A stretch of DNA of 64,000 nt from Emticicia agri (GTDB lineage: Bacteria > Bacteroidota > Bacteroidia > Cytophagales > Spirosomataceae). Under the pieces are notes generated by a model that did not search any database, had not been told where the DNA came from, and saw nothing but the letters and a program-made list of their open reading frames with translations. The stretch covers positions 1 to 64,000 of the forward strand of contig NZ_SEWF01000008.1 in assembly GCF_004168285.1 (NCBI RefSeq), written 5' to 3'. This document shows, piece by piece, positions 16,928-50,766 of this stretch. The position numbers and the translations under genes are program-made. Within the stretch, counting starts at the first letter, position 1; the number at the start of each line of letters is the position of its first letter.

Positions 16928-17060
16928 CAGCGAATGAAACGGACGCCGTCGCGGTCGCTGGCTAAGGTAACAAAGGAATTATTCTAATTGCACGCCGGAC
17001 TTAAGTCCGGCACTGTATAAAAAAATCCTTTGTTATCTTAGACACCGAATTCATTCGGTG
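16928..17060. repeat. Nested three-hairpin palindrome, copy 1
   Basis: Left hairpin CAGCGA..TCGCTG, box CTAAGGTAACAAAGGA (16962-16977), central palindrome GCCGGACTTAAGTCCGGC (16994-17011), complementary box TCCTTTGTTATCTTAG (17026-17041) and right hairpin CACCGAAT-TC-ATTCGGTG. The two boxes pair with each other, so the whole unit folds as a long stem. Lies between menF and the convergent repeat-protein gene. Confidence 0.9.
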
Positions 17061-17095
17061 AGTACCAAACAAAAACAATTTTATTGTCGTTTAGC

Positions 17096-18175
17096 TTACT
17101 TTCTGCCAAACAGACGAGCCCAGAAACCTTTGGCTTTTTGGGTGGCCTTTTCGGCCGCTTCTGAGGCTTCACTGGCTAACTCCTGTGCTTTTAGTTTAGC
17201 TGTTTCCAATGCCTCTGCCGCATCTTCTTTAATATCATCTAATTTTTCAGCCGCCTGATTTTTCAGTTCGTTAATCTTTTCTTCGTTTACATATTTGGCT
17301 TTCAGCTCTTCAATTTTTTCAGAGGCTTCAGCCGCTAATTCCTGCGCTTTTACTTTTGCATTAGCTACTGCTTCTTTAGCATCTTCTTTTAAATCTTCAA
17401 ATTTGTCTGCCGCAATAGCCGCTGCTTCCTGTGCTTTTACTTTTGCCGCATCAAAAGCATCACTTGCATCTTCTTTCAAATCATTGATTTTATCTGTAGC
17501 AGTTTCGGTAAATGATTGTACTTTTTCTTTACCTTCTGCTACAGTTTCGGTTGTTTTCTCTTTAGCCTCCTCTACTTTTGCCTCTACAGTAGCTTTTACC
17601 TCCGCCACTTTCTCTTCTGCCATAGCTACTTTTTCTTCTGCTACGGACTTTACTTCTTCAACTTTAGCAGTTACTTCTTCTTTTACTTCTGCTGCCTTTT
17701 CTTTGGCTTCGGCTTTCACTTCTTCAACTTTCTCTTCTGCTATAGCTATTTTTTCTTCAGTTGCTGCCTTTACTTCTTCAGCTTTAGTGGCAGCCTCTTC
17801 TTTCAACTCCTCTACTTTTTCTTTAGCAGCTTCTTTTACCTCTTCTGCTTTTGCTCCGCCAATGGCAGCTTTTTCTTCTGCTTCGGCTTTTACTTCCTCT
17901 ATCTTGTCAGCGGCCGCTTCTTTGGCATCTGCCGCAGCTTCAGTAGCTTCGGCTTTTATTTCTTCTACTTTGGCAGCAGCTTCTTCTACTTTCGCCTCAG
18001 CTACAGCCTTTGCTTCTTCGGCAGCCACGGCTGCTTCTTCTTTGATTTCAGCAGCTTTTTCTTTACCTGCTTCAATGGTTTCAGCTACAGCCGCTTTAGC
18101 ATCTGCTACTGCATCTGATGGGATACTTGTTTCTTCAACTTTGTCAGTGGTTTCGGATTTCTTATTAGTTGCCAT
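17096..18175 (-). CDS. Ala/Glu/Lys repeat protein, LEA- or apolipoprotein-like
   Basis: Product of 359 residues almost wholly made of A, E, K, V and D. Residues ~20-230 are short 11-residue-type repeats ('AEEKVEEVKAEAKEKAAEV'), and residues ~230-345 hold longer units ('DKFEDLKEDAKEAVANAKVK'). The pattern predicts long amphipathic helices. It ends with an aromatic/basic tail 'AKGFWARLFGRK' that could touch membranes. There is no signal peptide. LEA-like helical proteins protect against desiccation or freezing, and apolipoprotein-like ones bind lipid; which applies here is not known. The opposite strand carries long open frames only because of the repetitive codons. Confidence 0.75.
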   Translation of the reverse strand: MATNKKSETTDKVEETSIPSDAVADAKAAVAETIEAGKEKAAEIKEEAAVAAEEAKAVAEAKVEEAAAKVEEIKAEATEAAADAKEAAADKIEEVKAEAEEKAAIGGAKAEEVKEAAKEKVEELKEEAATKAEEVKAATEEKIAIAEEKVEEVKAEAKEKAAEVKEEVTAKVEEVKSVAEEKVAMAEEKVAEVKATVEAKVEEAKEKTTETVAEGKEKVQSFTETATDKINDLKEDASDAFDAAKVKAQEAAAIAADKFEDLKEDAKEAVANAKVKAQELAAEASEKIEELKAKYVNEEKINELKNQAAEKLDDIKEDAAEALETAKLKAQELASEASEAAEKATQKAKGFWARLFGRK

Positions 18176-18314
18176 TTCGCTTCAGAGTTTGAGTTAGTAA
18201 ATTGGATAAAAGAGTCTGATAAATTTCACACAAATAAAACCAAAGCAATTGATTTTTAATCAATTAGCTTATTTTTTTATTATTAAAATTATATACGTAG
18301 GTATCGTTTATACT

Positions 18315-18343
18315 TTACCACGGAGTATCACTGAGTTTCACGG
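18315..18343. repeat. Single arm of the AACCACGGAG repeat
   Basis: TTACCACGGAGTATCACTGA and following bases match one arm of the element at 6494-6598. No second arm is adjacent. Confidence 0.45.
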
Positions 18344-18346
18344 TTG

Positions 18347-18492
18347 GGTGATTGTCTTGAACTGGGATTTAGCTGATTGAACAGATTTCACTGAAACTCT
18401 TTAGAAAATCTAATATATTTCAGTAGGCACTATGTTTTTAAATCAGTTCCATCAGGTTAATCAGCTAAATCCCAGTTCAAGACAAAATCACC
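18347..18492. repeat. Inverted-repeat element, GTCTTGAACT family, copy 1
   Basis: The left arm (18347-18378, GGTGATTGTCTTGAACTGGG onward) is repeated inverted at 18459-18492 (ending CAAGACAAAATCACC). The arms share about 30 bases with few mismatches. Copy 2 is at 37135-37278. With the preceding half-repeat it fills most of the 334-bp gap; no gene is seen in it. Confidence 0.85.
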
Positions 18493-18509
18493 ATATAACG
18501 GCTACTCAA

Positions 18510-19202
18510 TTACTTAAAACTGATAATAAAGTGCGCAACAAAAGGATTCAGTTTCTGCGCATGTGGATTTTTAGACTCAAACGACTGGTCGCCCATTACT
18601 TTTTCGGCCACACTACTCAACGCCTGATTTTCGTAATCATAAGCTAATATGATTGATAAATAGCTTGTGCTGTCTGCATTCATCAGTTTACCGCCATTCC
18701 AGTCCACAACCGACCCACCATAGTCCCAGCCAAAGCCTGAGAAATTAAAAGGTTTTCCGTTTATTTGCTCTAACTCCGTCAGCTTTGTACCTACTTTTAC
18801 CCCATTGGTTACGTACCATTGTACCTCATTTTCTTTGCCGGGCTCTACAAAACCTATCTCTACATACGCAGGGTCTTTAAAGTTAAGCGTATCTTTCCAG
18901 GTAATATGCGCTTCGTTGGGTGTACCTTTATAAATGATAGTCCCGATTGAGAACATTCCCTCTGCGCCATAAATGGTATCGTGTACACTTACATTGGCTT
19001 TACCTAATTTGTTGATTAATTGCTGCTCACTGCTTCCGCTCGTAATTAACCCTGCTTTTTCACCGGGAATACACTCCCAGTTACTAACTATCGCCTCGCT
19101 GCTATCAGCCAAAGCAGTTGAATCAACTTTTTGTTCGTTGGTATCAGATGTACAGGCATTCAATAAAATACTCAACAGTATTATTGTGAATAACAACCTC
19201 AT
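18510..19202 (-). CDS. Lipoprotein of unknown function
   Basis: Product of 230 residues with a clear lipobox (LLNAC, Cys near residue 17). The mature part is a mixed alpha/beta domain with Gly/Trp-rich motifs ('FGWDYGGSVVDWNGGKL') and an early segment 'SSEQQLINKLGKANVSV' that recalls BON/SmpA-like lipoprotein starts. I do not recognise the family. Its start codon is two bases after the DUF5916 stop on the same strand, so the two are probably expressed together. Confidence 0.7.
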   Translation of the reverse strand: MRLLFTIILLSILLNACTSDTNEQKVDSTALADSSEAIVSNWECIPGEKAGLITSGSSEQQLINKLGKANVSVHDTIYGAEGMFSIGTIIYKGTPNEAHITWKDTLNFKDPAYVEIGFVEPGKENEVQWYVTNGVKVGTKLTELEQINGKPFNFSGFGWDYGGSVVDWNGGKLMNADSTSYLSIILAYDYENQALSSVAEKVMGDQSFESKNPHAQKLNPFVAHFIISFK

Positions 19203-19204
19203 AT

Positions 19205-21422
19205 TCAGAATTGTTTAAGGTAACTGATTTTGGCAATTACGTGGTCTTCTATTTGTCTCGGTTTTTGTAGCAGATTATCAAATTCTCTATGATTATACAC
19301 CACATAAATATAAGACAATGGTTGGTATTCCCACGACAGACGAATATTATAATTCTGCGACAGGTTTTCAGCATTTTTCTGATAAAAACCTATCAACTGC
19401 ACACGTGGGTTCAGGGCAAACCGACCCTCAATGCTATATAAATCTACGTCTAATTCACCGTTAGCTTCCTGAGCGAGAGAGCCCACCTTATTGAAATGAT
19501 TCCGGTTATATCTTGCTAAAATTGAAATATGCGGAATAGGTGCTATCTGCAAACGAATATCGTGTGAGTTCAGACGTCCGTTAAAGTAAGTACCCCATTC
19601 AAAGGAAGTATTCAGACTAACGATTGCCGAGGGATTAGTACTGGCATAAATCTGATGCCTTACATAATTGTAATCACCATTATCAATCTGTACTCCTAAT
19701 GGCACGAAAGGCTCTGTAAGCCGTTGGAATGTGGGATTAATCAGGTAGCCAAAGAACCCACCTCGCTGAAAATTCAACCAGATAGGATTAATATTCAGTT
19801 GTCGTTCAATCAGTTTTCCGGTAGAAGCCTGATGATAAAACTCGGTCATAATACCCGGTTCAAATGCACGGATAAACTTCTTGAACGGAATCCATTTACC
19901 CCGGTTAAAGAAGAAAATCCCCGGCGTAGTACCGATGACATCGCTTCTTGAAACGAAACCCATTTCAGGGTTAAAGTCTTTGGTTACAATAGATTGAGTC
20001 CACCAGATTTTAAACTGGTTAGTGGTATAATAATATTGGGCAAAACCTGAAAAACCTGATTTACCGGTATTGGAAGAGGTTGAATAAACCGCCATTGTAT
20101 TCAATGAATGCGACTCACTTAAACGGAAAAATCCATCAATGGTACCTGTCAGATTGGTGCCATCAGGGCGGTTTTTTACCGTTACCAATCCACCGATGCG
20201 GTTCTGTTTACCAAAGTTTTCAGAGTATCTTCCTACAAAGAAATTAGTACCGGGTGTATCCCCTACTCCTCGCTGGCGCATGGCAATTGCCCCGTAGTTT
20301 CTTTTCAAGGAACGGTACACAAATCTGCCACCTACATCAATCGGAATCGGATTACCACTATCGTCCAGCCCTATGGTTCGGCTGAAAAAAGGTTGTACAC
20401 GCATACTACCTCCCGAAAGGTCTTCATTTGGCCCGACACCTACGCCAAAAAGTGAGGCATTTTCTAAGAAAAACTGTCGCCTTTCAGGAAAAAATACGGA
20501 GAATCGGGTTACATTATTTACCTGACGGTCGGCATCAGCCTGAGCAAAGTCTGTATTGACTGTTAAATCTAAAATAGCATTCGGGTTAATGGCCCATTTC
20601 ACCTCACCCCCTAATTTATAGGTATTTTTGTCCGGCCTGTCAAAATTTTTATAGCGGTCGAACGAAGTCAGGAAATAAGGCTGGATACGCAAATTAGTTG
20701 AGGGTGGCGGTGGTTGCAGGTTGGTTAATACCCCGGCGTAGTCCATACGGGTATTGGTAAAAGTACGGGGGAAAGGCGAAAAAGCCGATTGCTCGTTGGT
20801 CAGGCGTCGGTTACGGAATACGTTAAAACCCCAGTTCTGAATCAGAGAATCAGTTTTAGGATAACGTAAAGTCTGCCAGGGTACGGCCATTTCAGCCACC
20901 CAGCCGGAATCGGTACGGGTAGTACGTACACGCCACAGACCATCCCAGTCAATGTCGTAATAAATATCGTCGAACGACAGAAAGTCTCTCTGCACGCCGT
21001 AAGGATTGGTTACCAATGCCATAGCATTGCGCTTATCATTGAACCCATCAAACGACAAAGCCACTAAATCGTGCTGTCTGAAACTAAAATCCCGCTTGAA
21101 GTCAGTGGCACGTATGGCTTTTTTACCCAGAGAATCACGGGCAAAAATCCCAAAATACAGGTAGTTTTTATTGTAAAGCACACGTACATCTGTCCGTTGG
21201 CTCGGCTGCTTTCCCTGAAAAGGTTCAATCTGAATAAAGTTTGCTATAGGTTTGGCAAACTTCCATTCAGCATCATTCATCACGCCGTCAATCCGGAGAT
21301 TAGTACTGATAAGTGTGGCTTCTATCTTTTTTTTTTACTGAGTCGGGTTTAAAAATTTCTGCGTCCTGGGCAAAAGAAAAAGAAGTAATAAAAAATAAAA
21401 AAATAGGTAGTTTTTTAATCAT
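19205..21422 (-). pseudogene. DUF5916 outer-membrane protein, frameshifted at an A10 run
   Basis: The main frame (19205 to 21283) holds a CBM9-like N-domain ('FRQHDLVALSFDGFNDKRN') and a large beta-barrel-like C-part ('FFPERRQFFLENASLFGVG', 'GGRFVYRSLKRNYGAIAMRQ'), the DUF5916 architecture. It lacks a signal peptide. The signal lies in another frame, from an ATG at 21422: 'MIKKLPIFLFFITSFSFAQ'. The frames join exactly if the run of ten A (T at 21327-21336) is nine: then 'DSVKKK' flows into 'IEATLISTNLRIDG', a normal DUF5916 start, giving 738 residues. So this is a sequencing error, a phase-variable tract, a slippage site or a new pseudogene. Related proteins act at the outer membrane; substrate is unknown. 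Confidence 0.8.
21327..21336. other. A10/T10 homopolymer causing the frameshift
   Basis: Ten consecutive T on the plus strand (A on the coding strand), right after the secretion signal of the DUF5916 gene. One base fewer restores a single frame. Confidence 0.9.
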
Positions 21423-21447
21423 ACAATGGGTAGCTTTTTCAGTTTTA

Positions 21448-21455
21448 CAAAAATA
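21448..21455 (-). promoter_or_regulatory. -7 box (TATTTTTG) for the DUF5916 gene
   Basis: Perfect TAnnTTTG on the minus strand, 26 bp upstream of the ATG at 21422. Its location supports that ATG, not the later GTG, as the native start. Confidence 0.5.
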
Positions 21456-21546
21456 GCAAAAACTCGTGTTTTTTTCTATTCTAAGGTACAAATTGAGAAA
21501 TAAATCTCTCATTAAAACCTGAGTACGCTACGCTTTTCTATATACG

Positions 21547-21572
21547 GACGATTTGAAAAATCGTGATACAAT
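21547..21572. repeat. Single arm of the GACGATTTGAAAAATCGTC element
   Basis: GACGATTTGAAAAATCGTGA and following bases match one arm of the element at 29572-29719, including its own hairpin. Confidence 0.55.
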
Positions 21573-21597
21573 GCTCAAAGAATCTCGTCCTATTTAT

Positions 21598-21605
21598 TAG
21601 TTTTG
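21598..21605 (+). promoter_or_regulatory. -7 box (TAGTTTTG) for the esterase
   Basis: Perfect TAnnTTTG, 43 bp upstream of the ATG at 21649. Confidence 0.45.
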
Positions 21606-21648
21606 TTGCGCTCTTAATTATTTACTATCTCATTCTAATCTCAATTCT

Positions 21649-22533
21649 ATGATGAAAAACTTCCGCTTAATTGTTTTCTCTGCTTTATGCTTTTTGTGTT
21701 TCTATGCAAATGCCGCTACGGTTGATAGTCTGGATGTACCCAGTGCTGTTATGAACAAAGCTTATAAAGCTGCCGTTGTATTGCCTGCTTCGTATGCCAA
21801 TAGTAAGGCGGCTTATCCGGTATTGTATTTGTTGCATGGCGGGTCGGGGCATTTTCGTGACTGGCTGACCTTAACACCGGATAAAATGCTGGTGAAGAAC
21901 CTGGCTGACCAGTTTAATATGATTATTGTTATGCCCGAAGGCGAGACCTTTGGCTGGTATCTTGATAGCCCTGTTGACCCCAATAACAAGTTTGAAACCT
22001 ATATCACCAAAGAAGTGATTCAGAAAATAGATAATACTTATCGTACTGTTCGTAGCAATAAAGGCCGGGTAATCACAGGTTTATCAATGGGCGGACACGG
22101 TGCTATGTATTTATCTGGCAGACATCCCGAATTGTTTTGTGCGGCAGGTACCATGAGTGGTGCAATGGATATGAACTATACTAAATTCAGGATAAATGAA
22201 GATTTTGCCAAATCGCTCAAAGACCGTTTTCAGAAATTATTAGGCACCTCAGATACTTCTGACGACGTGTATGTCAAAAACTCTATCATCAATATGGTAG
22301 ATGCCATTAAAAAGAATGGAATGCCCATTATTATTGATTGTGGCGTAGATGATTTTCTGATAGAAGCCAACCGTGAATTACACCACCGTTTATTGTATAA
22401 CAACGTTCCGCATGATTACGTAGAAAGACCCGGCGCCCATACCTGGGAATACTGGCAGAATTCATTGCCCTATCATCTACTTTTCTTCCAGAAGGTTTTG
22501 AAAGGTAATGGCTCGGCTGTTGAAGGGAAGTGA
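21649..22533 (+). CDS. Secreted esterase, alpha/beta hydrolase (esterase D/feruloyl type)
   Basis: Product of 294 residues with a signal peptide cut near 'FYANA-A'. The alpha/beta-hydrolase fold is visible: oxyanion part 'PVLYLLHGGSGHFRDW', nucleophile elbow GLSMGG, acid in 'IIIDCGVDDFLI', and catalytic His in 'RPGAHTWEYW'. These match the 'putative esterase' family that includes S-formylglutathione hydrolase, feruloyl esterase and mycolyl transferase. Being secreted, an acetyl- or feruloyl-ester of polysaccharides is a likely substrate, by inference. ATG-ATG gives two neighbouring starts. Followed by a nested-palindrome element. Confidence 0.88.
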   Translation: MMKNFRLIVFSALCFLCFYANAATVDSLDVPSAVMNKAYKAAVVLPASYANSKAAYPVLYLLHGGSGHFRDWLTLTPDKMLVKNLADQFNMIIVMPEGETFGWYLDSPVDPNNKFETYITKEVIQKIDNTYRTVRSNKGRVITGLSMGGHGAMYLSGRHPELFCAAGTMSGAMDMNYTKFRINEDFAKSLKDRFQKLLGTSDTSDDVYVKNSIINMVDAIKKNGMPIIIDCGVDDFLIEANRELHHRLLYNNVPHDYVERPGAHTWEYWQNSLPYHLLFFQKVLKGNGSAVEGK

Positions 22534-22556
22534 CAACCTAATTTCTCCGACAACGA

Positions 22557-22691
22557 CAGCGAATGGAAACAGTCCGCCGCTGCGGTCGCTGCCTAAGATA
22601 ACAAAGGTTATTATTTTTAGTGGCCGACTTAAGTCGGCACATATATAAATAATATTCCATTGTTTTCTTAGCCACCGAATTCTATTCGGTG
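22557..22691. repeat. Nested three-hairpin palindrome, copy 2
   Basis: Left hairpin CAGCGA..TCGCTG with inner CCGC/GCGG, box CTAAGATAACAAAGG, centre GCCGACTTAAGTCGGC (22623-22638), right box CCATTGTTTTCTTAG and right hairpin CACCGAAT..ATTCGGTG. Compared with copy 1 the central stem is shorter by one pair on both arms. Confidence 0.9.
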
Positions 22692-22699
22692 ACCCACAA

Positions 22700-22730
22700 G
22701 AACGTCCTTCAATCAAAGGACGCTCTTTAT
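22700..22730 (+). terminator. Hairpin, probable terminator after the esterase
   Basis: ACGTCCTT and AAGGACGC pair around a six-base loop, then TCTTTATATT. Confidence 0.5.
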
Positions 22731-22789
22731 ATTACAAATTCATATCATAGCCTAAACCACCCCAAGGAATTTTATTCTACAGCCTGATG

Positions 22790-22818
22790 TTTGTTTACTA
22801 AGCAATTTTATAATTTTG
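22790..22818 (+). promoter_or_regulatory. Promoter of panD: TTTG, 17 bases, TAATTTTG
   Basis: -33-like TTTG (22790-22793) and -7 TAATTTTG (22811-22818), both consensus for Bacteroidota. Start of transcription would fall after 22823, so the TTG at 22816 cannot start panD; the ATG at 22846 fits. Confidence 0.65.
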
Positions 22819-22845
22819 CACCACTATCAAAAAAAGGAAGGTATT

Positions 22846-23196
22846 ATGCTTGTTAATATTTTTAAGTCGAAAATTCATAGAGTGAAAGTTACCCAGGCAG
22901 AGTTGAATTACGTAGGGAGTATTACGATTGATGAAGATTTGCTCGACGCCGCAGGTATTATGGAAAACGAAAGAGTACAGGTAGTGAACAATAACAACGG
23001 CGAACGTCTGGAAACCTACGCCATTAAAGGCAAGCGGGGCTCAGGCATTATCTGTCTGAATGGAGCAGCAGCCCGCAAAGCAGAAGTGGGCGATATTGTG
23101 ATTATTATCTCGTATGCGTGGATGACACCCGAAGAAGCCAAAACTCATAAACCCCTTGTCGTGTTTCCTGATGAGAATAACCGTGTAGTGAAATGA
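22846..23196 (+). CDS. panD: Aspartate 1-decarboxylase PanD
   Basis: Product of 116 residues. From the ATG at 22846 the cleavage site GS falls at Gly24-Ser25 ('[10 protein letters not shown]'), exactly as in the E. coli enzyme, where self-cleavage makes the pyruvoyl cofactor on Ser25. '[19 protein letters not shown]' and '[20 protein letters not shown]' are further family motifs. It makes beta-alanine for pantothenate and coenzyme A. A GGAAGG lies just upstream. Its last four bases overlap the next gene (ATGA), so translation is coupled with the membrane protein downstream. Confidence 0.96.
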
Positions 23197-24185
23197 TAAA
23201 AAAGGTTTTGCAATATGTTATTTCGTTGGCAGTAGCCGGAGGTTTATTATGGTTTGTTTTTAAAGATATAGATTTAAACGCCCTTTGGGAAAAAATAAAA
23301 CAAGCCGATTACAAATGGGTAGGGCTATCGGCTGTTTTAGCCTTAATTGCCCATTGGAGCCGGGCTTACCGCTGGGCATTAATGTTGCAACCTTTAGGCT
23401 ATAATCCTTCTGTTTTCAGAACTACCTTAGCCGTATTAGTTGGCTATCTGGCTAATCTGGTTTTTCCAAGAGCAGGTGAGTTTGCCCGTTGTGGCACGCT
23501 CAAAAACCTCGACGATATTCCTTTTGAAAAATCTTTTGGTGCAGTAGTGGCCGAAAGAATAGCCGATGTACTGGTTTTACTGGTTCTAATTTTATTGAAT
23601 TTATTATTAGAATTTGACCGCTTGAGTACATTTTTTTTCAATTTCTTCGGCGATAAATTCAAAAATCCGATTTTGTTATTGGGCTTGGGGGCTGCCTTTC
23701 TTATACTGGCTTTTATGGCCTTTATGACCTTTAAACGCAATCAAGATAAAATTTCACAATTACCACTGTATCAGAAAGTCGCCAATGTTATTAAGGGATT
23801 GGCCGATGGCTTTTTAAGTGTGCGCAATCTCAAGAACCCAATGGTCTTTGTGTTCCATACGGTTTTTATCTGGGTAATCTATTACATCACCACTTATGTG
23901 CTTTGTTTTGCCTTACCCGAAACCGCCAACCTTTCGCCATTAGCCGCCTTAACTATTTTTGTGATGGGTTCTATCGGAATGGCAGCACCTACGCAGGGGG
24001 GTATCGGCAGTTATCACTTTTTAGTGGGTAGTATTGTCGTATTATATGGATTATCAGAGCAGGACGGTATTACTTTAGCAACATTCCTCCATGCCATGCA
24101 AGGGCTGTTTTTTGTGGTGGTTTTTGGGGTTGTAGCGTTTTTATTGACACTTGTTTTGCCGAAGAAAAAGTTGGAGGGTGTTTGA
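23193..24185 (+). CDS. Flippase-like membrane protein (LPG synthase TM-region family)
   Basis: Product of 330 residues with about eight membrane segments. '[20 protein letters not shown]', '[20 protein letters not shown]', '[15 protein letters not shown]' and '[17 protein letters not shown]' identify the lysylphosphatidylglycerol synthase transmembrane / UPF0104 family. Members flip or synthesise lipids or glycolipids in the inner membrane; the C-terminal synthase domain of MprF is absent. Overlaps panD by four bases; the functional link to pantothenate is unclear and probably just operon sharing, as also seen in other Bacteroidota. Confidence 0.85.
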
Positions 24186-24219
24186 AATTCGTTTAGATTT
24201 CTAAATTCAATATATAAAA

Positions 24220-24356
24220 ATGAGCGATGAAGAATATAGAGAATTAGAGATAAAGATTCTGCTTGAACGTTATGAGAAGTTCAAGAAAGACAGGATTTTG
24301 AGGAGACAATAAGGAAGTTGAAAGAAAAGTATGGTTTAGAGGTTAATAGTAAGTAA
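24220..24356 (+). pseudogene. Small frameshifted ORF, unknown charged protein
   Basis: An ATG at 24220 opens 'MSDEEYRELEIKILLERYEK' and stops at 24312 after 30 residues. A second frame just before the stop continues as 'DFEETIRKLKEKYGLEVNSK', ending at 24356. Removing the shift (one base short near 24291-24296) would join them into a ~45-residue, highly charged helical protein. I do not recognise the family. This looks like one small gene broken once, or with a sequencing error. It lies between the flippase-like gene and a repeat element. Confidence 0.4.
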
Positions 24357-24382
24357 AACCTACATATTTTATTAAATTAGTT

Positions 24383-24545
24383 AGCTTGGGCGCCCCGGGG
24401 CTTCGACTCCGCTCAGCCGCCGAATCCGAGTTTTAAGTGCCAAAGTAGAGAGGACAACCAGGCAATTGAGATAAGAAATCAACAAATAAACTGAAGCCTA
24501 TCCGGTGCCTGAGCGAAGTCGAAGGCCGCGCATAGGAGGCACTCG
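24383..24545. repeat. Inverted-repeat element, TTCGACT(C/T)CGCTCAG family
   Basis: GGGGCTTCGACTCCGCTCAG at 24397-24416 is inversely repeated as CTGAGCGAAGTCGAAGGCC at 24509-24527, with GC-rich flanks and an AT-rich centre. It fills the gap before rfaE2. Similar repeats are well known in other bacterial genomes. Confidence 0.75.
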
Positions 24546-29571: not shown

Positions 29572-29719
29572 TTGTATGACGATTTTTCAAATCGTCGCTC
29601 GGCGAATACTAAAGTAATTTAAATGGCATACTTTATTTCTTTTATGAAAATGGTCAAATCTACATGGTTAATTTATAAAATTCTGTCGAATTTTGACGAT
29701 TTGAAAAATCGTCATACAA
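29572..29719. repeat. Inverted-repeat element, GACGATTTTTCAAATCGTC family
   Basis: TTGTATGACGATTTTTCAAA at 29572-29591 (arm to 29596) is inversely repeated at 29695-29719. Each arm is also its own hairpin. The element lies in the head-to-head gap between the DMT transporter and folA. A single arm is at 21547-21572. Confidence 0.85.
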
Positions 29720-43215: not shown

Positions 43216-43263
43216 TAGAGAAGAAAAAACGATAAAATAGAAGAATGTACTTCTTTTATTAAT

Positions 43264-43305: not shown

Positions 43306-43355
43306 GTATATCGCAAAAATCCCTTCAATTTTGCAGCACTATTGATTTTACACCA

Positions 43356-44675
43356 ATGATGAACCTTGTTTTAAATCTCTCTAAGAGAACTGTTATAGGC
43401 AGTTTTTTAATTTGTTGTACCCTATCGGTATCTTTTGCGCAAGACCACGGAGCTTTAACAGATATTGATACCACTACAGCCCGTAAACTCTTTGCTACAC
43501 TCAAAAAATACGAATTTGTAGGTATCAGTGGCTATATACAGCCGCAGTTCCAATGGATACAGACCAAAGGAGCCAAAAATTTTAATGGCGGAGATTTTCA
43601 GCCCAATGCCAGCAACCGTTTTATGCTGCGCCGTGGTCGTATCCGCTTTGATTATGCCCGCTATTTCGAAAACAATATGCCCAAACTCTATTTTATCTTT
43701 CAGTTTGACGGCACCGAGCGAGGCATTTTTATACGTGATTTCTGGGGACGTATCTATGAAAATAAATTCAAGTCTTTTTACCTTACTACCGGTATGTTTG
43801 CCCGTCCGTTCGGCTTCGAATTAGGTTATGGCTCACCAGACCGTGAATCACCGGAACGTGGAAGAATGTCACAGATTCTGATGAAAGTAGAGCGTGATTT
43901 TGGTTTTATGGGTAGTTATGAACCCCGTGCAAAAACCAATTTTCTGAAATATATCAAATTTGACCTGGCCGTATTTAATGGGCAAGGAGTAAATGCAGTA
44001 GCTGATTTTGACAATCACAAAGATGTCGTTTCAAGGCTTTCAGTAAAACACTTTAATCTGGCACCAAAACTGATTGTGAGCGGAAGCGTATCAGGCTTTG
44101 TGGGAGGCATGGAACAGTTTACCAACAAGATTTATCGGATGAACGAATCTACCAGACAATTTTTGGTTGATTCATCGGCCAGTAATGTAGGAAGAATTGC
44201 ACCCCGAAATTATTATGGAGCCGATATACAAATCAGGATTCCAAACCGTGTAGGTGAAACAGAATTCAGGGCAGAGTATATCAGAGGTACGCAAACGGCA
44301 CTTCAGGGTACTACCGAAACCCCAGCGGTTATTCCTATGGAAAATGGCAAATTAGCTCCACTCTATATCCGTCATTTTGATGGGGCTTATTTTTATTACC
44401 TCCAGCACTTAGGCAGCAGAAAACATCAGCTAATACTGAAATATGACTGGTATGACCCTAATAAAAAAGTAAAAGGTACGCAGATAGGACAAGGATTCTC
44501 AGCCGCTGATGTTCGCTTTAATACCTTTGGTTTTGGTTACCTGACTTATATTTATGACAATGTAAGATTGATGCTCTGGTATGAAATGCCGCAGAATGAG
44601 CAAACAGCTTTGACTGACTATACGAAGGATTTGAAGGATAATAACTTTACTTGTCGGGTGCAGTATAGGTTTTAA
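43356..44675 (+). CDS. Phosphate-selective porin O/P family protein
   Basis: Product of 439 residues. Signal peptide cut near 'SVSFAQ-D'. The barrel starts 'FVGISGYIQPQFQWIQTKG' and 'NRFMLRRGRIRFDYARYFEN', and shows 'YLTTGMFARPFGFELGYGSP', the OprO/OprP-type porin pattern. It forms an outer-membrane channel for phosphate or pyrophosphate. Placed right after the PiT transporter, so the pair can carry phosphate across both membranes (inference). Two neighbouring ATG codons at 43356 and 43359. Confidence 0.88.
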   Translation: MMNLVLNLSKRTVIGSFLICCTLSVSFAQDHGALTDIDTTTARKLFATLKKYEFVGISGYIQPQFQWIQTKGAKNFNGGDFQPNASNRFMLRRGRIRFDYARYFENNMPKLYFIFQFDGTERGIFIRDFWGRIYENKFKSFYLTTGMFARPFGFELGYGSPDRESPERGRMSQILMKVERDFGFMGSYEPRAKTNFLKYIKFDLAVFNGQGVNAVADFDNHKDVVSRLSVKHFNLAPKLIVSGSVSGFVGGMEQFTNKIYRMNESTRQFLVDSSASNVGRIAPRNYYGADIQIRIPNRVGETEFRAEYIRGTQTALQGTTETPAVIPMENGKLAPLYIRHFDGAYFYYLQHLGSRKHQLILKYDWYDPNKKVKGTQIGQGFSAADVRFNTFGFGYLTYIYDNVRLMLWYEMPQNEQTALTDYTKDLKDNNFTCRVQYRF

Positions 44676-44703
44676 AGAGACGCCCCGCCGACCCGTCGGA
44701 CCG

Positions 44704-44880
44704 CCCTAAAGGGGTGCTACAAATTCGACGATTATGAAACTCACGTAGCATACGTAATGGTATTCTAAAATTCAGCTAATACTTGTGAAGGCCTTATTTA
44801 AGGTTTTTTTACTACTCCTAAAGGGGAGCTAAAAAAAATCGTCGAATCTGAAAGCTCCCCTTTAGGGGTTGGGGGTGTTG
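44704..44880. repeat. Inverted-repeat element, CCCTAAAGGGG..TTCGACGATT family
   Basis: CCTAAAGGGGTGCTAC with AATTCGACGATT (44705-44733) is inversely related to AATCGTCGAATCTGAAAGCT with CCCCTTTAGGGG (44837-44868). An inner hairpin CTCCTAAAGGGGAGCT / AGCTCCCCTTTAGGGG (44815-44868) lies within it. It overlaps the 3' end of tamB. Confidence 0.8.
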
Positions 44881-47800
44881 GTTTACGCTTGAAGATTGTA
44901 TTGAAATTACGGGTATGTTGCAGGCTTACGCCATTTACCGTAACGTTTGTGTTAAAGTTATAGAAGTAATTTGGCACGTTGCGGCTATAAGCCTTTAAAC
45001 GCCAGCTACCATCTTCATTCAATAGCCATTCTACCTCTCCACCATAAAAATAGTTTCCGGCGGTTTGTTCCTGGTTTTGTAGAATAGTGTTATTTACACT
45101 CAATTTCAAACGATTATTGCTGAAACGATACGAGAAATTGACCTGTACATTATTAAACAAACTCTGACGTACGGTACTCATAGCCCCCAACTGTACCCCG
45201 ATTTCAAGGTTAGGGTTTATTTTAGAAGCAATAGTGCCCAACTGGTTGGTCAGAAGGCTACTGACATTATCTAAAAGCAATTGAGAATCAACCACATCTC
45301 TGAAACTATTGTCAGAGAATAATCGGTTAAACGCTGCTACCCCAACAAAGTTATTCGCTAATAATTGTTCATCGTTTCTTAGCCTCTGCTCAAAAGCAAT
45401 TACCTGTGGCTGGAGATTCAATGGTAATCGTCTCTGGTCGAATCTGATGTCATATTTGATTGTTGGCGTCATGAGTTTATCGGTCAGCATCACATAGGCA
45501 CTTACCGGATATTGAGTTTTCAGTTCGGCACTGTTGGTAGCCGAAACAATGCCATCTGGTAAAAATACATTGGCTGTTACAATGGCATTGATACTGATGT
45601 CTGCATCATAAGGGTCGCCTGACCAACGAATCCAGCTACCATCGGCAATATCAAATTTCCTTACCCTTGATATATTCTGCAAGCTGAAATCATACTTCCC
45701 ACTTCTGATGGTATAGGGGCCAGTCATGGTAAAACCTCCACGGGTATCATATTCAATACTGATTCGCCCGTTTCCTACGGCGGTTAACTGGTCTTTATTG
45801 ATACGGTCAAATATCACTATACATTCCGCATCAGGCGTAATAGTAAAGTTAAACGCCATCGTTAAACTGCCTGACTCTTCTGTTACAGTTGAGTCTTTTT
45901 TAGTGGCTTTACTTTTAGGATTCTGTTCGTTTCTGGTAACAAAAGTAATGCCCTCTTCTTCGGTATTCACATAGGTTGCTCCATCTAACGGAATCGTAAT
46001 TTTTGTCCCTTTTTTGCTGGTCAGGTTACCTGTCATGGCCACATTTTTCAGGCTTCCGGTAATATGCAAATCTCCGGTAGCCACTGCTGTGCCAAAGAAA
46101 TCTTCGTTGTTCTTAATGGAGGTATTCATGATTCTGAACCCATCTCGGCCTCGCATATAAGCATGAAGCCCTAACATGAAATTGCCGCTTCCGCCATTAA
46201 AAATACCTCCGGCCAACTCTGCTTCATTGCCTTCAGTATCATGTACTTTAAAGCCTTTCTGCACCACAAACCCTTCTTCATTAAAATTAATCTTATCATC
46301 AAAATACAAGGCAGTATTTAGTTCATTCACCACCAGACTCCCTTTCTCAACAGCTACGCTACCCCTGATAACCGGGTCGCCGGGCGTACCGCCGATAGAC
46401 AATATACCTGAGCCGTAGCCTGCTACATTAGAAAAAATATCATCAACAAACGACTGGAATATTTCAAGATTCGCTTTTTTAAGCTCAGCTTTCAGGTTAA
46501 GCGGGTCATATTCATCTTTAGGGTCATAAGTACCCGACAGGCGAAATATCTCGTTATCGATTCTGACAATATTGCCATTGATATTCAGCTTCTGGGTTAG
46601 GTTATCCCAGAGTATCCCCCCTGCTATGGTACCTACCAGGCTATTTTTGTAAATCAGTTTATCAATACCAAACTCACTTGTAACCAAGCCATCGCTATAC
46701 ATATCTTTCAGCATCAGCTTACCATTCACAATGCCTTTCAGGTCAACATTTGAGAGTGGCTTAATGGTTTGCAAATCAAAATCATGCACATCTACATAGG
46801 CTTCCTTGAGACTATCAGCCGACAGATAGCCATTCATGGAAATACTCTGGTTTTTGTTAGCAATGGTTACATCCTGAAAACAAATATCTGACCGATAGAA
46901 ATTAATAAGGTTGTTTCTTGCCAATTGCCAGGTTTCGCCCAACAAGTCCAGCTTGGTATTCCGATGGTTAAAATTTACGTCGATTTCATTCTGTAAAAAG
47001 GTAAGTTGCCCAAACACCTGCGCTTTGTTTGAACTCTTCTGTTGTTTGATTCTGGCATCAAATTCTATCACATTAGCCTGCCCCCATGCACCGTTTACTT
47101 CTAATTTTTCGGTAGGCGCCATATCGCCTAATTTCTGTTTATCCGAATTAAACACCAAAGAAGTAAGAATCTTAGGCGATGCCAATTCTTTAGATGTAAT
47201 AAAGTCTAATTCATTGTTATAAAACGCAAAACTTCCATGCCGTAAAGTATCAATCTTACCCCCCAACGAGACCTCAATTGTATTTCTTATATTGAGTTGT
47301 CCGTTCAATTCGGTATTAGGCGAGATAAACAACTCAGGATAGAAATAAGCAAAGAAAGGTTCTGACTTCTTGAATAAGACTTTATAGTCGAGATTATATC
47401 TTGGTTGAAAAGTAGAAGTAGGTAAATTAACATAATAAGTCATGCGAGTAGCTTCATCTTCAACAAAATACTGTGTATATTCTTTCGAGAAACGTACCAC
47501 ATCATTGATTACCTGACTTGGCGTAAACTTACCTGTTACATCAATATTAAAAAACTCTGAAAGCAGACTGATACGACGACTATTGCTGTCTAAAGTAGAC
47601 GTAACAAATACCGAATCAATGCCCAATTTCCGTTTATCATATTGCAGAACTGTGTGCAATAACTGCGCACGCCCCATCCAGTTATCTAATTCATTTCCCT
47701 GAAAATCTAAGGTTAATTCAGAGCGTAGTTTTACATCATTTTTGGCATATCCTAAAGCCTGTAGATTGGCATTCTGAACAAAGCCATGAATATCGAACTT

Positions 47801-49381
47801 ATTAAGTTTCTGACTGAAATCAACTTTACCACCTATATCAAAAGTCAGATTAGTATCCTTTACGCTCACTCGCCCATCAAATAAAGACTGGCTCATTTCG
47901 CCGTCAACCGTAATATTTCTGAAGTCATAACCATTAAACCATATATGCTTCACAGTGCCGTCGAAATTCAATAAGGCATCTTTAATGGTCAATCCTTTCC
48001 CTTTAATATCGCCTGTAAAAGACATTTTCTGGAGCATTTTTTCTTCGTTCACCAGTTTGCCTAATTCTAATTCATCAACCATCAACGAACCTGTATAAGT
48101 AGGTAAAGCTTTACCATTGGGTATCTTCATGGTAATATTCCCTGCTACCAGACCCAACTGAGACTTTACGAAAGCATCGGTTGTAAAATCGTTATACAGT
48201 CCTTTAAATATTCCGGCAAAAGTAGTGATACCAAACTTCTGTACGTGTTTCAGATAGAGCGAGTCGCCCACATACTGACGGGCATCAATGGCATCAATCT
48301 GCGAAGGTTTCCAGGTCAGGTCCATCACTGCCTTTCGCAAGTCAGGCATATTTTTAAAGGCAATATCCCCATCAAGGTAGCTGTTCTTACCAAATTTCAG
48401 GTTAAAGTTTTTGACCCTGAAATCATGTACTGTTCCCTTGAAATCTCCGTTAAGCAAGTAGTTTTCATGATATTCATACATATCAGTTGCAAACCTGCCC
48501 AAGTCTTGTGCATCAATTTCACAATCGCGCAGGTCTCCTATCATTTCCACTTTTTCGTTGAAATCGCTGAAATCTCTTGGTGTAAGGTAATTGAAATGAA
48601 CCGACCGCTTGAGTGTAGAATTATTAATTCGGGCATACAGGTCATCAAATCTCATGTGCTGCCTCGAATAAAAGAATTGTGTATTTAATTCTTTTATCTC
48701 AAGGTTACTTCTGCGGTCGGCTCCTTTTAAATCTGTCAGAGCAAACTTAATGGTATCGCCCTGTATAAAAAAGTCTTTCAGCAACCCCTGAACCCCATGA
48801 ACTGTAAAATTATTATAATCAAATTCTTCTTTAGGGAAACGGGCTTCTTCAGGGTCTTGCAGCGTAAATGTGCCCCCCTGAATATAAGTTTCATCAATCG
48901 TAAACGGAATATTATGCTCAATCCTAACTTTGGCAGTATCAGGCGTTGAGGTCAGTTCTTCAATCTTCGCAATCCATTTATCAATATTCAGATCGCCATC
49001 GGGTTCATAAATTAACTTTACCCGTGGGTCGAGTACCATTACATAATCAAGGTTATTGTCGAAAGTCAGAAAAGTATTCCAGTTGAAATTGAAATTGGTT
49101 TTAGAGTTCACATATAACTCTTTTACAAAAATCATTTCACGGTTTTTGTAGTCATAAATCGTTACATTCTCTAAGGTGATTTCATCGAACCAGGTAAGTT
49201 TGGCTTTTTCTATTTTTACTTGAGAACCTAATTTCTGAGAGAGGTATTCGGTAGCTCTTTGTAGGGTAAGGGTTTGTACTACAGGCAATTGCAAGGCATA
49301 AAATACCGTAACTATTCCCATAAAAATAATGAAAATAAGATTCAGCAGGATTCTGGTTGATATTTTAACTATGCGGCGCAA
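44798..49381 (-). CDS. tamB: Translocation and assembly module protein TamB
   Basis: Product of 1527 residues. One N-terminal membrane anchor ('LLNLIFIIFMGIVTVFYALQ'), then repeated beta strands of the AsmA/TamB type over most of the length, and a C-terminal DUF490 domain ('GSWIRWSGDPYDADISINAI', 'NLEIGVQLGAMSTVRQSLF'). TamB is a periplasm-spanning groove protein that works with outer-membrane partners in barrel assembly or lipid transport. The last ~28 residues ('KPTPPTPKGELSDSTIFFSS' and beyond) are encoded in a repeat element. Whether the original end is lost is not known. Start ATG at 49381. Confidence 0.92.
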   Translation of the reverse strand: MRRIVKISTRILLNLIFIIFMGIVTVFYALQLPVVQTLTLQRATEYLSQKLGSQVKIEKAKLTWFDEITLENVTIYDYKNREMIFVKELYVNSKTNFNFNWNTFLTFDNNLDYVMVLDPRVKLIYEPDGDLNIDKWIAKIEELTSTPDTAKVRIEHNIPFTIDETYIQGGTFTLQDPEEARFPKEEFDYNNFTVHGVQGLLKDFFIQGDTIKFALTDLKGADRRSNLEIKELNTQFFYSRQHMRFDDLYARINNSTLKRSVHFNYLTPRDFSDFNEKVEMIGDLRDCEIDAQDLGRFATDMYEYHENYLLNGDFKGTVHDFRVKNFNLKFGKNSYLDGDIAFKNMPDLRKAVMDLTWKPSQIDAIDARQYVGDSLYLKHVQKFGITTFAGIFKGLYNDFTTDAFVKSQLGLVAGNITMKIPNGKALPTYTGSLMVDELELGKLVNEEKMLQKMSFTGDIKGKGLTIKDALLNFDGTVKHIWFNGYDFRNITVDGEMSQSLFDGRVSVKDTNLTFDIGGKVDFSQKLNKFDIHGFVQNANLQALGYAKNDVKLRSELTLDFQGNELDNWMGRAQLLHTVLQYDKRKLGIDSVFVTSTLDSNSRRISLLSEFFNIDVTGKFTPSQVINDVVRFSKEYTQYFVEDEATRMTYYVNLPTSTFQPRYNLDYKVLFKKSEPFFAYFYPELFISPNTELNGQLNIRNTIEVSLGGKIDTLRHGSFAFYNNELDFITSKELASPKILTSLVFNSDKQKLGDMAPTEKLEVNGAWGQANVIEFDARIKQQKSSNKAQVFGQLTFLQNEIDVNFNHRNTKLDLLGETWQLARNNLINFYRSDICFQDVTIANKNQSISMNGYLSADSLKEAYVDVHDFDLQTIKPLSNVDLKGIVNGKLMLKDMYSDGLVTSEFGIDKLIYKNSLVGTIAGGILWDNLTQKLNINGNIVRIDNEIFRLSGTYDPKDEYDPLNLKAELKKANLEIFQSFVDDIFSNVAGYGSGILSIGGTPGDPVIRGSVAVEKGSLVVNELNTALYFDDKINFNEEGFVVQKGFKVHDTEGNEAELAGGIFNGGSGNFMLGLHAYMRGRDGFRIMNTSIKNNEDFFGTAVATGDLHITGSLKNVAMTGNLTSKKGTKITIPLDGATYVNTEEEGITFVTRNEQNPKSKATKKDSTVTEESGSLTMAFNFTITPDAECIVIFDRINKDQLTAVGNGRISIEYDTRGGFTMTGPYTIRSGKYDFSLQNISRVRKFDIADGSWIRWSGDPYDADISINAIVTANVFLPDGIVSATNSAELKTQYPVSAYVMLTDKLMTPTIKYDIRFDQRRLPLNLQPQVIAFEQRLRNDEQLLANNFVGVAAFNRLFSDNSFRDVVDSQLLLDNVSSLLTNQLGTIASKINPNLEIGVQLGAMSTVRQSLFNNVQVNFSYRFSNNRLKLSVNNTILQNQEQTAGNYFYGGEVEWLLNEDGSWRLKAYSRNVPNYFYNFNTNVTVNGVSLQHTRNFNTIFKRKPTPPTPKGELSDSTIFFSSPLGVVKKP

Positions 49382-49462
49382 CTACTTGAGCGAATAAACA
49401 AAATAATTAACAAATCAATTAATTACTGAATTACCAATGGTAATTTTGTGTTTTAATTACTT

Positions 49463-49598
49463 CACCGAATAAAACGGTCTGCCGTTGCGGTCGGTGGCTA
49501 AGATAACAGCGGTCTTTTTTTGTATACATAGCCGGACCGCGCGGTCCGGCTTATAGTAATATTTCCTTTGTTATCTTAGGCGGTGAATTCATTCACCG
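49463..49598. repeat. Nested three-hairpin palindrome, copy 3
   Basis: Left hairpin CACCGA..TCGGTG, box GCTAAGATAACA, centre GCCGGACCGCGCGGTCCGGC (49531-49550), right box CCTTTGTTATCTTAG (49565-49579), right hairpin CGGTGAAT-TC-ATTCACCG (49581-49598). The central and right stems differ from copies 1 and 2 by paired changes. It lies 35 bp before tsaD. Confidence 0.9.
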
Positions 49599-49633
49599 AT
49601 ACTTTTGAAAACACAAAATTTTAATCTTTAGTT

Positions 49634-50641
49634 TTGAATATTTTAGCGATCGAATCTTCTTGTGACGAAACGTCAGCGGCTGTTATTTCTAACGGTAAAA
49701 TCTACTCTAACATTGTAGCAGGACAACTAATTCATGAACGTTTTGGTGGAGTTGTCCCTGAGTTGGCTTCCCGTGCCCACCAGCAACATATTTTACCCGT
49801 GGTCGAAAATGCACTGGAAAAGGCAAAGGTAACAAAAAATCAGCTAAATGCCATAGCTTTTACACGTGGCCCGGGGCTTTTAGGCTCTTTGCTGGTAGGC
49901 ACTTCATTTGCCAAAGCTATGGCTCTTGGGCTCAATATTCCACTGATAGAAGTCAATCATATTCAGGCACATGTATTGGCACACTTTATTGATGAGCCTG
50001 CTCCGGCGTTTCCTTTTTTATGCCTTACAGTCAGCGGCGGTCATACCCAGATTGTACTGGTACGCAGCCATTTAGATATGGAGGTAATTGGTGAAACCCA
50101 GGACGATGCCGTTGGTGAAGCCTTTGATAAAACGGCCAAGCTTTTGGGGTTACCTTATCCCGGCGGGCCATTGGTAGATAAATATGCCCAACAAGGCAAC
50201 CCCGAGGCTTTTGAGTTTCCTTTGTCTGAAATGCCCAAATACAATTTCTCGTTCAGTGGTATCAAGACTTCTATTCTGTACTTTTTAAAGGCTAATCAGG
50301 CGAAAAATCCGAATTTTATTGAAGAAAATATGGCTGATATTTGTGCGAGTGTACAGCATGCACTCATAAAAATGCTATTGCAAAAACTACGCAAGGCAGC
50401 TCGTGAATTAAACATTAAAGAAGTAGCTATTGCCGGAGGGGTTTCGGCCAATTCGGGTCTGAGAAAAGCCTTACAGGAATTAGGCGAAAAAGAAAGATGG
50501 AAAGTTTATATCCCACAGTTTCAGTACTGTACCGACAATGCCGGAATGATTGCTATGGCGGCTCATTTTAAATACCTGAAAGGCGAGTTTACCTCGCAGG
50601 AAGTAAGCCCCTTGCCGAGAATGGATGGTAAATATTCGTAG
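49634..50641 (+). CDS. tsaD: tRNA N6-adenosine threonylcarbamoyltransferase TsaD
   Basis: Product of 335 residues. 'NILAIESSCDETSAAVI' is the canonical TsaD start, so the start codon must be the TTG at 49634. The metal-binding motifs are 'RAHQQHILPVVE', 'NHIQAHVLAHFI' and 'TVSGGHTQIVLV', and the end holds 'CTDNAGMIAMAAH'. TsaD, with TsaB, TsaC and TsaE, makes t6A37 in ANN-decoding tRNAs, an essential step. Its start codon sits inside a TAGTTTTG box (49629-49636). It is bracketed by two nested palindrome copies (49463-49598 and 50645-50766). Confidence 0.95.
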   Translation: MNILAIESSCDETSAAVISNGKIYSNIVAGQLIHERFGGVVPELASRAHQQHILPVVENALEKAKVTKNQLNAIAFTRGPGLLGSLLVGTSFAKAMALGLNIPLIEVNHIQAHVLAHFIDEPAPAFPFLCLTVSGGHTQIVLVRSHLDMEVIGETQDDAVGEAFDKTAKLLGLPYPGGPLVDKYAQQGNPEAFEFPLSEMPKYNFSFSGIKTSILYFLKANQAKNPNFIEENMADICASVQHALIKMLLQKLRKAARELNIKEVAIAGGVSANSGLRKALQELGEKERWKVYIPQFQYCTDNAGMIAMAAHFKYLKGEFTSQEVSPLPRMDGKYS

Positions 50642-50644
50642 TAT

Positions 50645-50766
50645 CAGCGACTGAAGTCGCCGTCTAAAATAACAAAGGAACAATTTTAGTTGTGTAATGC
50701 GGACTTAAGTCCGCTTATGTAAGATGACAATACCGTTGTTATCTTAGACGGCGACTTCAGTCGCTG
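50645..50766. repeat. Nested three-hairpin palindrome, copy 4
   Basis: Left hairpin GCGACT-ga-AGTCGC (50647-50660), box CTAAAATAACAAAGG, centre GCGGACTTAAGTCCGC (50699-50714), right box TTGTTATCTTAG and right hairpin GCGACT-tc-AGTCGC. Starts three bases after the tsaD stop. Stems differ from the other copies by matched changes on both arms. Confidence 0.9.

Follow-up and report, generated by a model that had tools for sequence, protein, structure and literature searches.

The window analysed here, a 64,000-nucleotide stretch of Emticicia agri DNA, contains four sequences in which hairpins are nested to a common plan, and the question they raise is what such a repeated structure is for. Very probably all four belong to one REPIN-like, non-autonomous mobile element found in the genus Emticicia and dependent on an IS200/IS605-related TnpA, a small transposase by which the element most likely moves in single-stranded form.

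Structure of the element

The first-pass annotation had given the four copies one layout of hairpin, box, central palindrome, inverse box and hairpin, and both layout and positions are confirmed for all four (Table 1). Its view that the outer boxes are conserved stands in that a box is shared, but the boxes are not identical, being CTAAGAAAACAATGG in one window copy and CTAAGATAACAGCGG in another. It had also described each copy as one three-hairpin palindrome. Half-unit searches, and the finding of both paired and lone halves, correct this: the repeating unit is a half, composed of an outer hairpin, one base, a 15-nt box (CTAARATAACAAAGG), an AT-rich spacer and an inner hairpin; short halves measure about 66-70 nt. 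A complete copy (115-150 bp) is two inverted halves with one common inner hairpin. Outer hairpins come in two lengths, a short one of mostly 18-19 nt and a long one of mostly 33-35 nt with a GC-rich insert, and long forms occur for the central hairpin too.

Table 1. Positions of the element copies in the window and of the transposase locus L160 in Emticicia sp. C21
Feature	Location	Strand	Left outer hairpin	Box	Central palindrome	Inverse box	Right outer hairpin
Copy 1, complete element	16928-17060	.	16928-16960, long	16962-16976	16994-17011	17027-17041	17043-17060, short
Copy 2	22557-22691	.	22557-22591, long	22593-22607	22623-22638	22657-22671	22673-22691, short
Copy 3	49463-49598	.	49463-49496, long	49498-49512	49530-49551	49565-49579	49581-49598, CGGTGA..TCACCG type
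Copy 4	50645-50766	.	50645-50662, short, A.C mismatch type	50664-50678	50699-50714	50733-50747	50749-50766, short, A.C mismatch type
Left arm AATTTTGTGTTTT, 13-bp inverted repeat bracketing copy 3	49442-49454	+
Right arm AAAACACAAAATT, 13-bp inverted repeat bracketing copy 3	49608-49620	+
Half matched by model R3	L160, 1232-1298	-
Half matched by model R3	L160, 1361-1427	+
tnpA, intact Y1/HUH transposase gene (143-146 aa), between two inward-facing halves	L160, 1483-1914
Half matched by model R3	L160, 1962-2044	-

As single-stranded DNA, copies 1 to 4 fold far more stably than their shuffles (z of -7.8, -8.6, -6.5 and -11.0; 0/200 shuffles fold as well for each copy). The claim that both arms of a stem change together is borne out on 50 half-units, whose rows are not all independent since the halves of one copy have a common inner stem: cells changed on both sides number 102 against 35.7 (sd 3.9) expected, a count that 0/500 shuffles reach, and the covariation score is 0.323 against 0.090 in shuffles and at most 0.106 with the partner slid. 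A weaker measure, pairs changed on both sides, gives 8/16 against 6.4 (13/500 shuffles reach 8), and further pair types in the stems are not in excess (14 against 13.3 shuffled; 211/500 shuffles reach this). Pairing throughout the stems holds for 95.3% of cells across the 50 half-units (80.8% shuffled), but it is imperfect: 23/50 outer hairpins have an A.C mismatch in common, always at their second pair.

This mismatch goes with a division of the ends into two types. Type I ends have a KTT foot before perfect CAC..GTG hairpins (26/33, falling to 0-3/33 if shifted), and type II ends an RTRW foot before A.C-mismatch hairpins (31/52, 2-5 if shifted); 21 of 55 copies combine one of each. Two end types with distinct feet, together with the conserved A.C mismatch, are unusual features of the Emticicia element.

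Copy number and distribution

Profile searches found the further copies that the first-pass annotation had proposed to collect, and their stems covary. The window genome contains at least 39 complete copies, another 6 in which one half is degenerate, and 13 lone halves; the congener Emticicia sp. C21 (G002) has at least 19 complete copies. Half-unit matches number 99 in the window genome, where the 97 listed resolve into 39 fused pairs plus 19 halves with no partner (the full-core model R2 matches 6 of these). In C21 they number 54, and the 53 listed give 19 fused pairs, 11 unpaired halves and 2 inverted pairs that are separated, one of them enclosing a tnpA gene. About 230 bases were read at each of 11 unpaired boxes in the window genome, none of which coincides with a genome Y1 match: five are halves (L133, L134, L138, L139, L141), two are altered elements whose second half lies far off or has degenerated (L135, L136), and four (L132, L137, L140, L142) were rejected as halves, since they look like chance box matches.

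The family was detected in nine of the 11 Emticicia genomes, one of them only at the borderline, and in 0/27 other genomes. Copies are dispersed and mostly intergenic, and they are old, with a mean pairwise identity of 72-73% (maximum 90%).

A transposase gene between two halves

In C21, one tnpA gene lies among halves of the same kind. The half-unit model R3, built without this locus, matches three halves around the gene (Table 1). The product matches Pfam Y1_Tnp (E 1.8e-26), the IS200/IS605 model of NCBIfam (69.2 bits against a cut-off of 55) and, in the PDB, the transposases 2xm3 (E 6.8e-10), which we take to be ISDra2 TnpA, and 2a6m of ISHp608 (E 1.5e-5). It has the catalytic motifs DHLH (HuH) and YIFNQEVHH; its score of 35.7 bits with the REP-associated tyrosine transposase model NF047646 is below the cut-off of 80, and it lacks Y---NP.

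Among 30 of the 53 Y1 matches in ten congeners, only L160 has a tnpA with exact boxes on both sides. All four Y1 loci of the window genome (L016-L019) were ruled out as carriers of the element, the box core AACAAAGG being absent from their flanks to a distance of about 1.5 kb, or less if the contig ends sooner. The window genome has the most copies, yet no close C21 TnpA copy is seen in its assembly of 174 contigs; the best matches are 36% (intact) and 47% (a fragment with a stop).

Since the two halves face inward around tnpA in C21, the small copies are most simply read as the two ends of a tnpA-bearing element from which the gene was lost, the inner hairpins becoming fused. The transposase would bind the hairpins in single-stranded DNA, for example the lagging-strand template, and would cut at the short foot next to each outer hairpin; the doublet would then be excised and joined into another single-stranded target without duplication of that target. 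That an enzyme of the C21 type moves the copies by such a route, cutting at the feet, is what we infer from sequence, because the window assembly has no close TnpA copy.

Occupied sites, empty sites and target duplication

Comparison with the congeners G001, G002 (C21) and G003 shows that sites are often empty. The copy 1 element is not seen at the orthologous site in any of the three, G002 having a different hairpin-ended sequence there. Copy 2 is present at its site in G001 and not seen in G002 or G003. G001 and G002 both lack the element at the copy 3 site, and the copy 4 site has no element in G001 and another palindromic sequence in G002. Element-free sites could be aligned for 15 site-genome pairs over 10 sites, most of them too diverged for the junction to be placed; at the best (L011 against G002) the junction is readable only within a run of T. 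As to whether insertion takes place 3' of a fixed short target, as in IS200/IS605 elements, the foot consensus agrees with what is seen at L011 and L002 where the element is missing, the junctions at other sites not being readable.

Some sites are common to species: besides copy 2 in G001, flank matches in G002 bracket (L084, L014) or adjoin (L015) a G002 copy. This would suit a once mobile element, now domesticated, whose copies bind a host protein (nucleoid, gyrase or recombination) that keeps the stems paired, and so would the many copies kept by the window genome without a close TnpA. Host-protein binding has been suggested for the BIMEs of E. coli. However, several copies are unshared between genomes, and partnerless halves occur, as expected of decay. 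We regard domestication as very unlikely.

The check for target-site duplications, like that for empty sites, had been proposed in the first-pass annotation. None of 51 elements shows a duplication of at least 3 bp at zero offset. With offsets allowed, a few copies have a short word in common between their two flanks (of 8 bp at L088, and of 5 bp at L102 and at one L033 copy), and the average word, 1.59 against 1.47 for permuted flanks (p 0.25, 51 elements), is not above chance. This bears on the possibility that the element is a MITE of a double-strand-cutting DDE transposase, its hairpins being decorated terminal inverted repeats. The two hairpin-and-box ends (about 34 nt) are indeed inverted copies of each other, but the fixed-length duplication expected of such a MITE is not found, the gene between two such ends is Y1, there are two hairpin types each with its own foot, and the hairpins are kept by compensatory change though left and right ends differ. 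We regard a DDE origin as very unlikely.

The first-pass annotation left it undecided whether selection for structure acts in DNA or in RNA. Strong folding would also be expected of a bidirectional terminator, an mRNA-stabilising hairpin or a structured RNA, retained because it influences the genes nearby, and at 5 of the 22 copies with both neighbour ORFs called these are convergent. However, the neighbours run in the same direction at 14 of the 22 and diverge at 3, and such mixed orientations, together with the lack of any Rfam match at the gathering threshold, leave an RNA role without positive evidence; frequent emptiness of the sites in congeners and retention of the A.C mismatches also speak against it. 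An RNA-level element thus has little probability. A DNA transposase target is favoured, because the same ends flank a Y1 gene, copies are present or absent among congeners and no target-site duplication is detectable.

Comparison with known systems

No named family with this plan was known to the first-pass annotation. We likewise found none that matches the plan exactly, although the element is of a known kind, close to REP/BIME/REPIN sequences and to PATEs, the non-autonomous palindromic relatives of IS200/IS605. No paper on the Emticicia family was found in the open-licence PMC literature, which does not establish its absence in print.

REPIN/BIME sequences with RAYT/TnpA_REP, as described in PMC3116915, PMC8266576 and PMC6006769, are likewise dispersed extragenic palindromes, mostly in inverted pairs. 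Their repeats also border a Y1 transposase gene of low copy number, their imperfect stems keep a mismatch, and a preferred foot lies 5' of the hairpin. Inverted palindromic pairs are found in Emticicia, and the halves and tnpA of C21 are arranged like a REPtron, an arrangement not seen in the window genome. REPINs have a GT[AG]G tetranucleotide at the foot, where the Emticicia ends have KTT or RTRW. The Emticicia unit also differs in comprising two hairpins and a conserved box of 15 nt, and the C21 TnpA has Y---Q--HH where class 2 TnpA_REP has Y---NP.

By motif, rather than by the authors' HMM, the C21 protein belongs to TnpA_Y1 subclass 1.2 of Quentin et al. (2018, PMC6006769): Y---Q--HH, WQ, a length of about 148 aa, low copy number and occurrence in Bacteroidetes all agree, the HuH motif being DHLH where their table has DH[IV]H. 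That paper gives no REP for the subclass, whereas the C21 member is bracketed by cognate repeats and relatives tend to have hairpins nearby.

PATEs, as described in PMC3119063, are also non-autonomous, with palindromes near the ends, a targeting sequence beside the end, no target duplication and IS605-type kin, but they lack terminal inverted repeats, whereas the Emticicia element is an inverted doublet. IS200/IS605 elements (IS608, ISDra2) have an HUH/Y1 TnpA with hairpins at the ends and resemble the Emticicia element in showing no excess of target-site duplication. Their left and right ends differ, without terminal inverted repeats; a further difference is that in C21 one tnpA of this type stands against at least 19 gene-less fused copies. 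The single tnpA locus with these ends, and their inversion, unlike classical IS200/IS605, are among the observations that stand against the preferred reading, as are the age of the copies and the lack of a close TnpA in the window genome.

How REPs and REPINs spread is an open question, addressed mostly in Proteobacterial class 2 TnpA_REP. In Emticicia nature offers a system in which the Y1 subclass is a different one, the unit has two hairpins and there are two end types with distinct feet; one strain keeps the enzyme, and in others only the repeats were detected. Which hairpin features the enzyme reads, and whether it is the doublet that moves, thereby become directly testable. It is quite possible, though we put it forward tentatively, that Y1 transposases with the Y---Q--HH motif (subclass 1.2) are, in Bacteroidota, a second, independent REP/REPIN-making system, each keeping its own family of hairpins whose apex is conserved while the arms drift and covary, and that the perfect KTT-foot and A.C-mismatched RTRW-foot hairpins of Emticicia are functional left and right ends. 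If true, repeat-making would extend to a subclass reported without REPs.

Inverted repeats around some copies

An outer inverted motif, GAACTTGTCT/AGACAAGTTC, was rejected as a general element end, since it occurs near only L001, L005 and L008 among 131 flanks. Four of 51 copies lie between inverted-repeat arms of at least 10 bp (permutation p 0.01 for the mean), and arms similar to those bracketing copy 3 are found on both sides of the corresponding empty site of G001 and of G002. This could reflect insertion into hairpin loops, but the arms need not predate the element, because at L008 they are missing along with it in both G001 and G002.

Distribution and folding of the copies

The four palindromic copies of the window, starting at 16928, 22557, 49463 and 50645, are present as the first-pass annotation described, and are very probably REPIN-like non-autonomous elements of a Y1 transposase, whose movement we infer from sequence comparison. 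As single-stranded DNA, their stability lies 6.5 to 11 standard deviations above that of dinucleotide shuffles. An exact pattern (AACAAAGG, 40-65 bases, CCTTTGTT) has 15 matches in the Emticicia agri genome and none for a reversed-pattern control. R2, a covariance model of the full core built from 18 copies, which match by construction, finds 44 places there (82 matches counting both strands). That copies should exist beyond the window is borne out by R2 matches in 9 of 38 genomes, including E. agri itself; within the genus 9 of 11 genomes are positive, with a single borderline match in the congener G004 (E 8.6e-4), and the congener copies were outside the training set. None of the 27 genomes from outside the genus matched, with 122 candidates scored per genome.

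Most copies tested (23 of 24) lie outside mechanically called ORFs of at least 90 codons, the sole one inside being in an ORF of ~95 codons, and the orientation of neighbouring genes is mixed. Any two copies are on average 72-73% identical, and at most 90%, and thus there has been no recent burst.

The half-unit as building block

A complete copy is two inverted half-units (outer hairpin, 15-nt box, AT-rich spacer, inner hairpin) with the inner hairpin in common. Five of 11 inspected unpaired boxes in E. agri belong to such halves. The half-unit model R3, whose counts are lower bounds (150 candidates scored per genome), gives 99 matches in this genome, the 97 listed forming 39 fused inverted pairs, with 19 halves left unpaired; six of the 19 also have an R2 match and therefore a degenerate partner, leaving 13. 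In Emticicia sp. C21 (G002) there are 54 matches, of which the 53 listed form 19 fused pairs, two inverted pairs with separate inner hairpins and 11 unpaired halves, at least two of these (C1:888366 and C6:161830) overlapping an R2 match.

The earlier suggestion that the two arms of each stem change together holds in an alignment of 50 half-units: 95.3% of cells are paired, 102 are changed on both sides where shuffles give 35.7, and the alignment scores 0.323 for covariation vs 0.090 shuffled and at most 0.106 with the partner slid. The excess is weaker for pairs with two-sided change (8 vs 6.4, reached in 13 of 500 shuffles), and further pair types show none (14 vs 13.3, 211 of 500 shuffles). 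The exception to pairing is the second pair of the outer hairpin, where an unpaired A.C is retained in 23 of the 50.

Some copies carry GC-rich inserts within the outer hairpin, central hairpin or box. Inserts such as GCGGACGCCGCGCGG lie within the boxes of loci L048, L086, L091, L092, L093 and L141, and also inside long outer and central hairpins. They are reminiscent of the small repeats that insert into PATE palindromes of Haloquadratum (PMC3119063).

A Y1 transposase gene between two half-units

PF01797 (Y1 transposase) has 4 matches in E. agri and 53 across ten congeners. Of these 53 congener loci 30 were inspected, and at one the gene is enclosed by element ends: L160 on contig3 of Emticicia sp. 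C21, the single gene-bearing copy found. It was excluded from R3 training. Our rough estimate of the chance that two inward halves lie within 150 bp of one of five Y1 genes is near 1e-4, based on ~54 halves in 6.6 Mb and allowing for intergenic clustering.

Features of the C21 tnpA locus (L160, local coordinates)
Feature	Position	Strand	Remark
Additional half	1232-1298	-	R3
Half-unit	1361-1427	+	R3, inward-facing toward ORF
Intact Y1 ORF	1483-1914		Between two inward half-units
Half-unit	1962-2044	-	R3, inward-facing toward ORF

The encoded TnpA matches Pfam Y1_Tnp (1.8e-26) and, above cut-off, an IS200/IS605 model of NCBIfam; its match to the REP-associated NCBIfam model is below cut-off. Relatives of solved structure include the ISHp608 transposase and 2xm3, which we take to be ISDra2 TnpA. 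The protein carries DHLH, WQ and YIFNQEVHH, in agreement with the published subclass 1.2 signature Y---Q--HH except that HuH has L where the survey has I/V (PMC6006769). In that survey no REP is listed for subclass 1.2 and typical IS200 end structures are generally absent (PMC6006769); the TnpA in question is outside the subclasses reported with REPs. Evidence against the proposed reading is that E. agri, the most copy-rich genome, has as its nearest TnpAs an intact protein of 36% identity and a stop-containing fragment of 47%. Possible reasons are loss of the enzyme there, its absence from the 174-contig assembly, or the action of a different Y1 enzyme.

Element-free sites and end types

Empty orthologous sites, looked for in close relatives, were found. 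Site 49463 is element-free in G001 and G002 with flanks aligning; 50645 lacks the element in G001 and has another palindromic sequence in G002; 22557 is occupied in G001 and lacks the element in G002 and G003; and 16928 lacks it in all three. For 16 further copies the joined flanks were searched in three congeners, and 15 of the 20 stretches extracted were aligned, picked for continuous or close flank matches, widely separated ones being only partly read. The element is absent from 15 of 15 of these near-continuous stretches (10 sites). In G002, the flank matches of L084 and L014 lie on either side of a resident copy, and one match of L015 abuts such a copy; thus some insertions are common to both genomes.

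The G002 counterpart of the first window copy's site (L126 310-433) holds a different hairpin-ended sequence with GAGACGTATTGCAATACGTCTC ends. A similar hairpin lies at L264 240, the L076 site in G001, and a single related-looking one at window 60619-60637.

Target-site duplication did not exceed chance in the 51 of 70 extracted elements with both hairpins resolved (19 with missing, odd or distant-subfamily hairpins were dropped). At zero offset, flanks share two bases in 7 elements vs 5.3 expected, and three or more in none; when offsets of as many as 3 bases are allowed, common words average 1.59 vs 1.47 (p 0.25), and L088 has the longest, of 8 bp. The G002 counterpart of L011 reads through with no visible duplication, at a resolution limited by a run of T.

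Outer hairpins with perfect CAC..GTG are preceded by a KTT foot in 26 of 33 cases (0-3 at shifted positions), and those with the A.C mismatch by RTRW in 31 of 52 (2-5 when shifted). Among 55 copies, 21 are of mixed type, 11 have two mismatch ends, as does the C21 tnpA locus, and 6 have one unclassed end. Two diverged element-free sites, L011 and L002, are compatible with feet that predate insertion and would reflect target preference, not element sequence.

Inverted-repeat arms of at least 10 bp enclose 4 of 51 copies; those around the third window copy exist in relatives without the element, those at L008 do not. Outer arms GAACTTGTCT/AGACAAGTTC lie beyond the outer hairpins at L001 (single arm), L005 and L008. 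In G001 and G002, the L005 and L008 sites have neither these arms nor the element, and so a longer subfamily or a nested insertion is possible.

Relatives of the C21 transposase

Among 80 retained loci of 227 encoding the C21 TnpA or relatives (C21 included), 79 have Y---Q--HH in a forward frame. In the 59 analysed, which all have long flanks and again include C21, a hairpin with a stem of at least 7 occurs inside 250 bp of the gene in 40, vs 9 for equal-length stretches ~1.2 kb off (Wilcoxon p 2e-7), and hairpins flank the gene on both sides in 17. A recurrent hairpin, CAACGGATTNNAATCCGTTG, has 1 to 20 copies per genome and more than two in 9 of 12 genomes, counts that are illustrative and not a census since the genomes were selected for it or a similar hairpin at tnpA. 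Two contrast genomes have none, and a reversed control gives none in 14 of 14 genomes. One low-copy genome has a single copy and another only two, close together, counts that give no sign of dispersal in either. Tentatively, the Y---Q--HH TnpAs of Bacteroidota might form a second REP/REPIN-making system, with the two end types of the Emticicia doublet as functional left and right ends; we place this somewhat short of an even chance, a little lower on account of the weaker dispersal in 3 of the 12 genomes.

Other palindromic sequences

A second hairpin pair, GACGATTTTTCAAATCGTC, lies at window 29578-29714. Near-identical hairpins lie to either side of a longer Y1 gene in E. agri (L018, 1144 and 1824; ORF 1165-1815) and of its G002 counterpart (L170, 1147 and 1827), and may represent another repeat family, distinct from the first and with a Y1 gene of its own. 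An inverted hairpin pair, GGCGAACTTCCAGTTCGCC and GGCGAACTGGAAGTTCGCC, spans 129 bp end to end at window 14062-14190, with no further copy among the extracted loci. A further dispersed palindromic family is represented at window 18352-18485 by an inverted repeat of 43 nt with 86% complementarity, which has partial matches in either orientation at numerous positions of G001 and G002.
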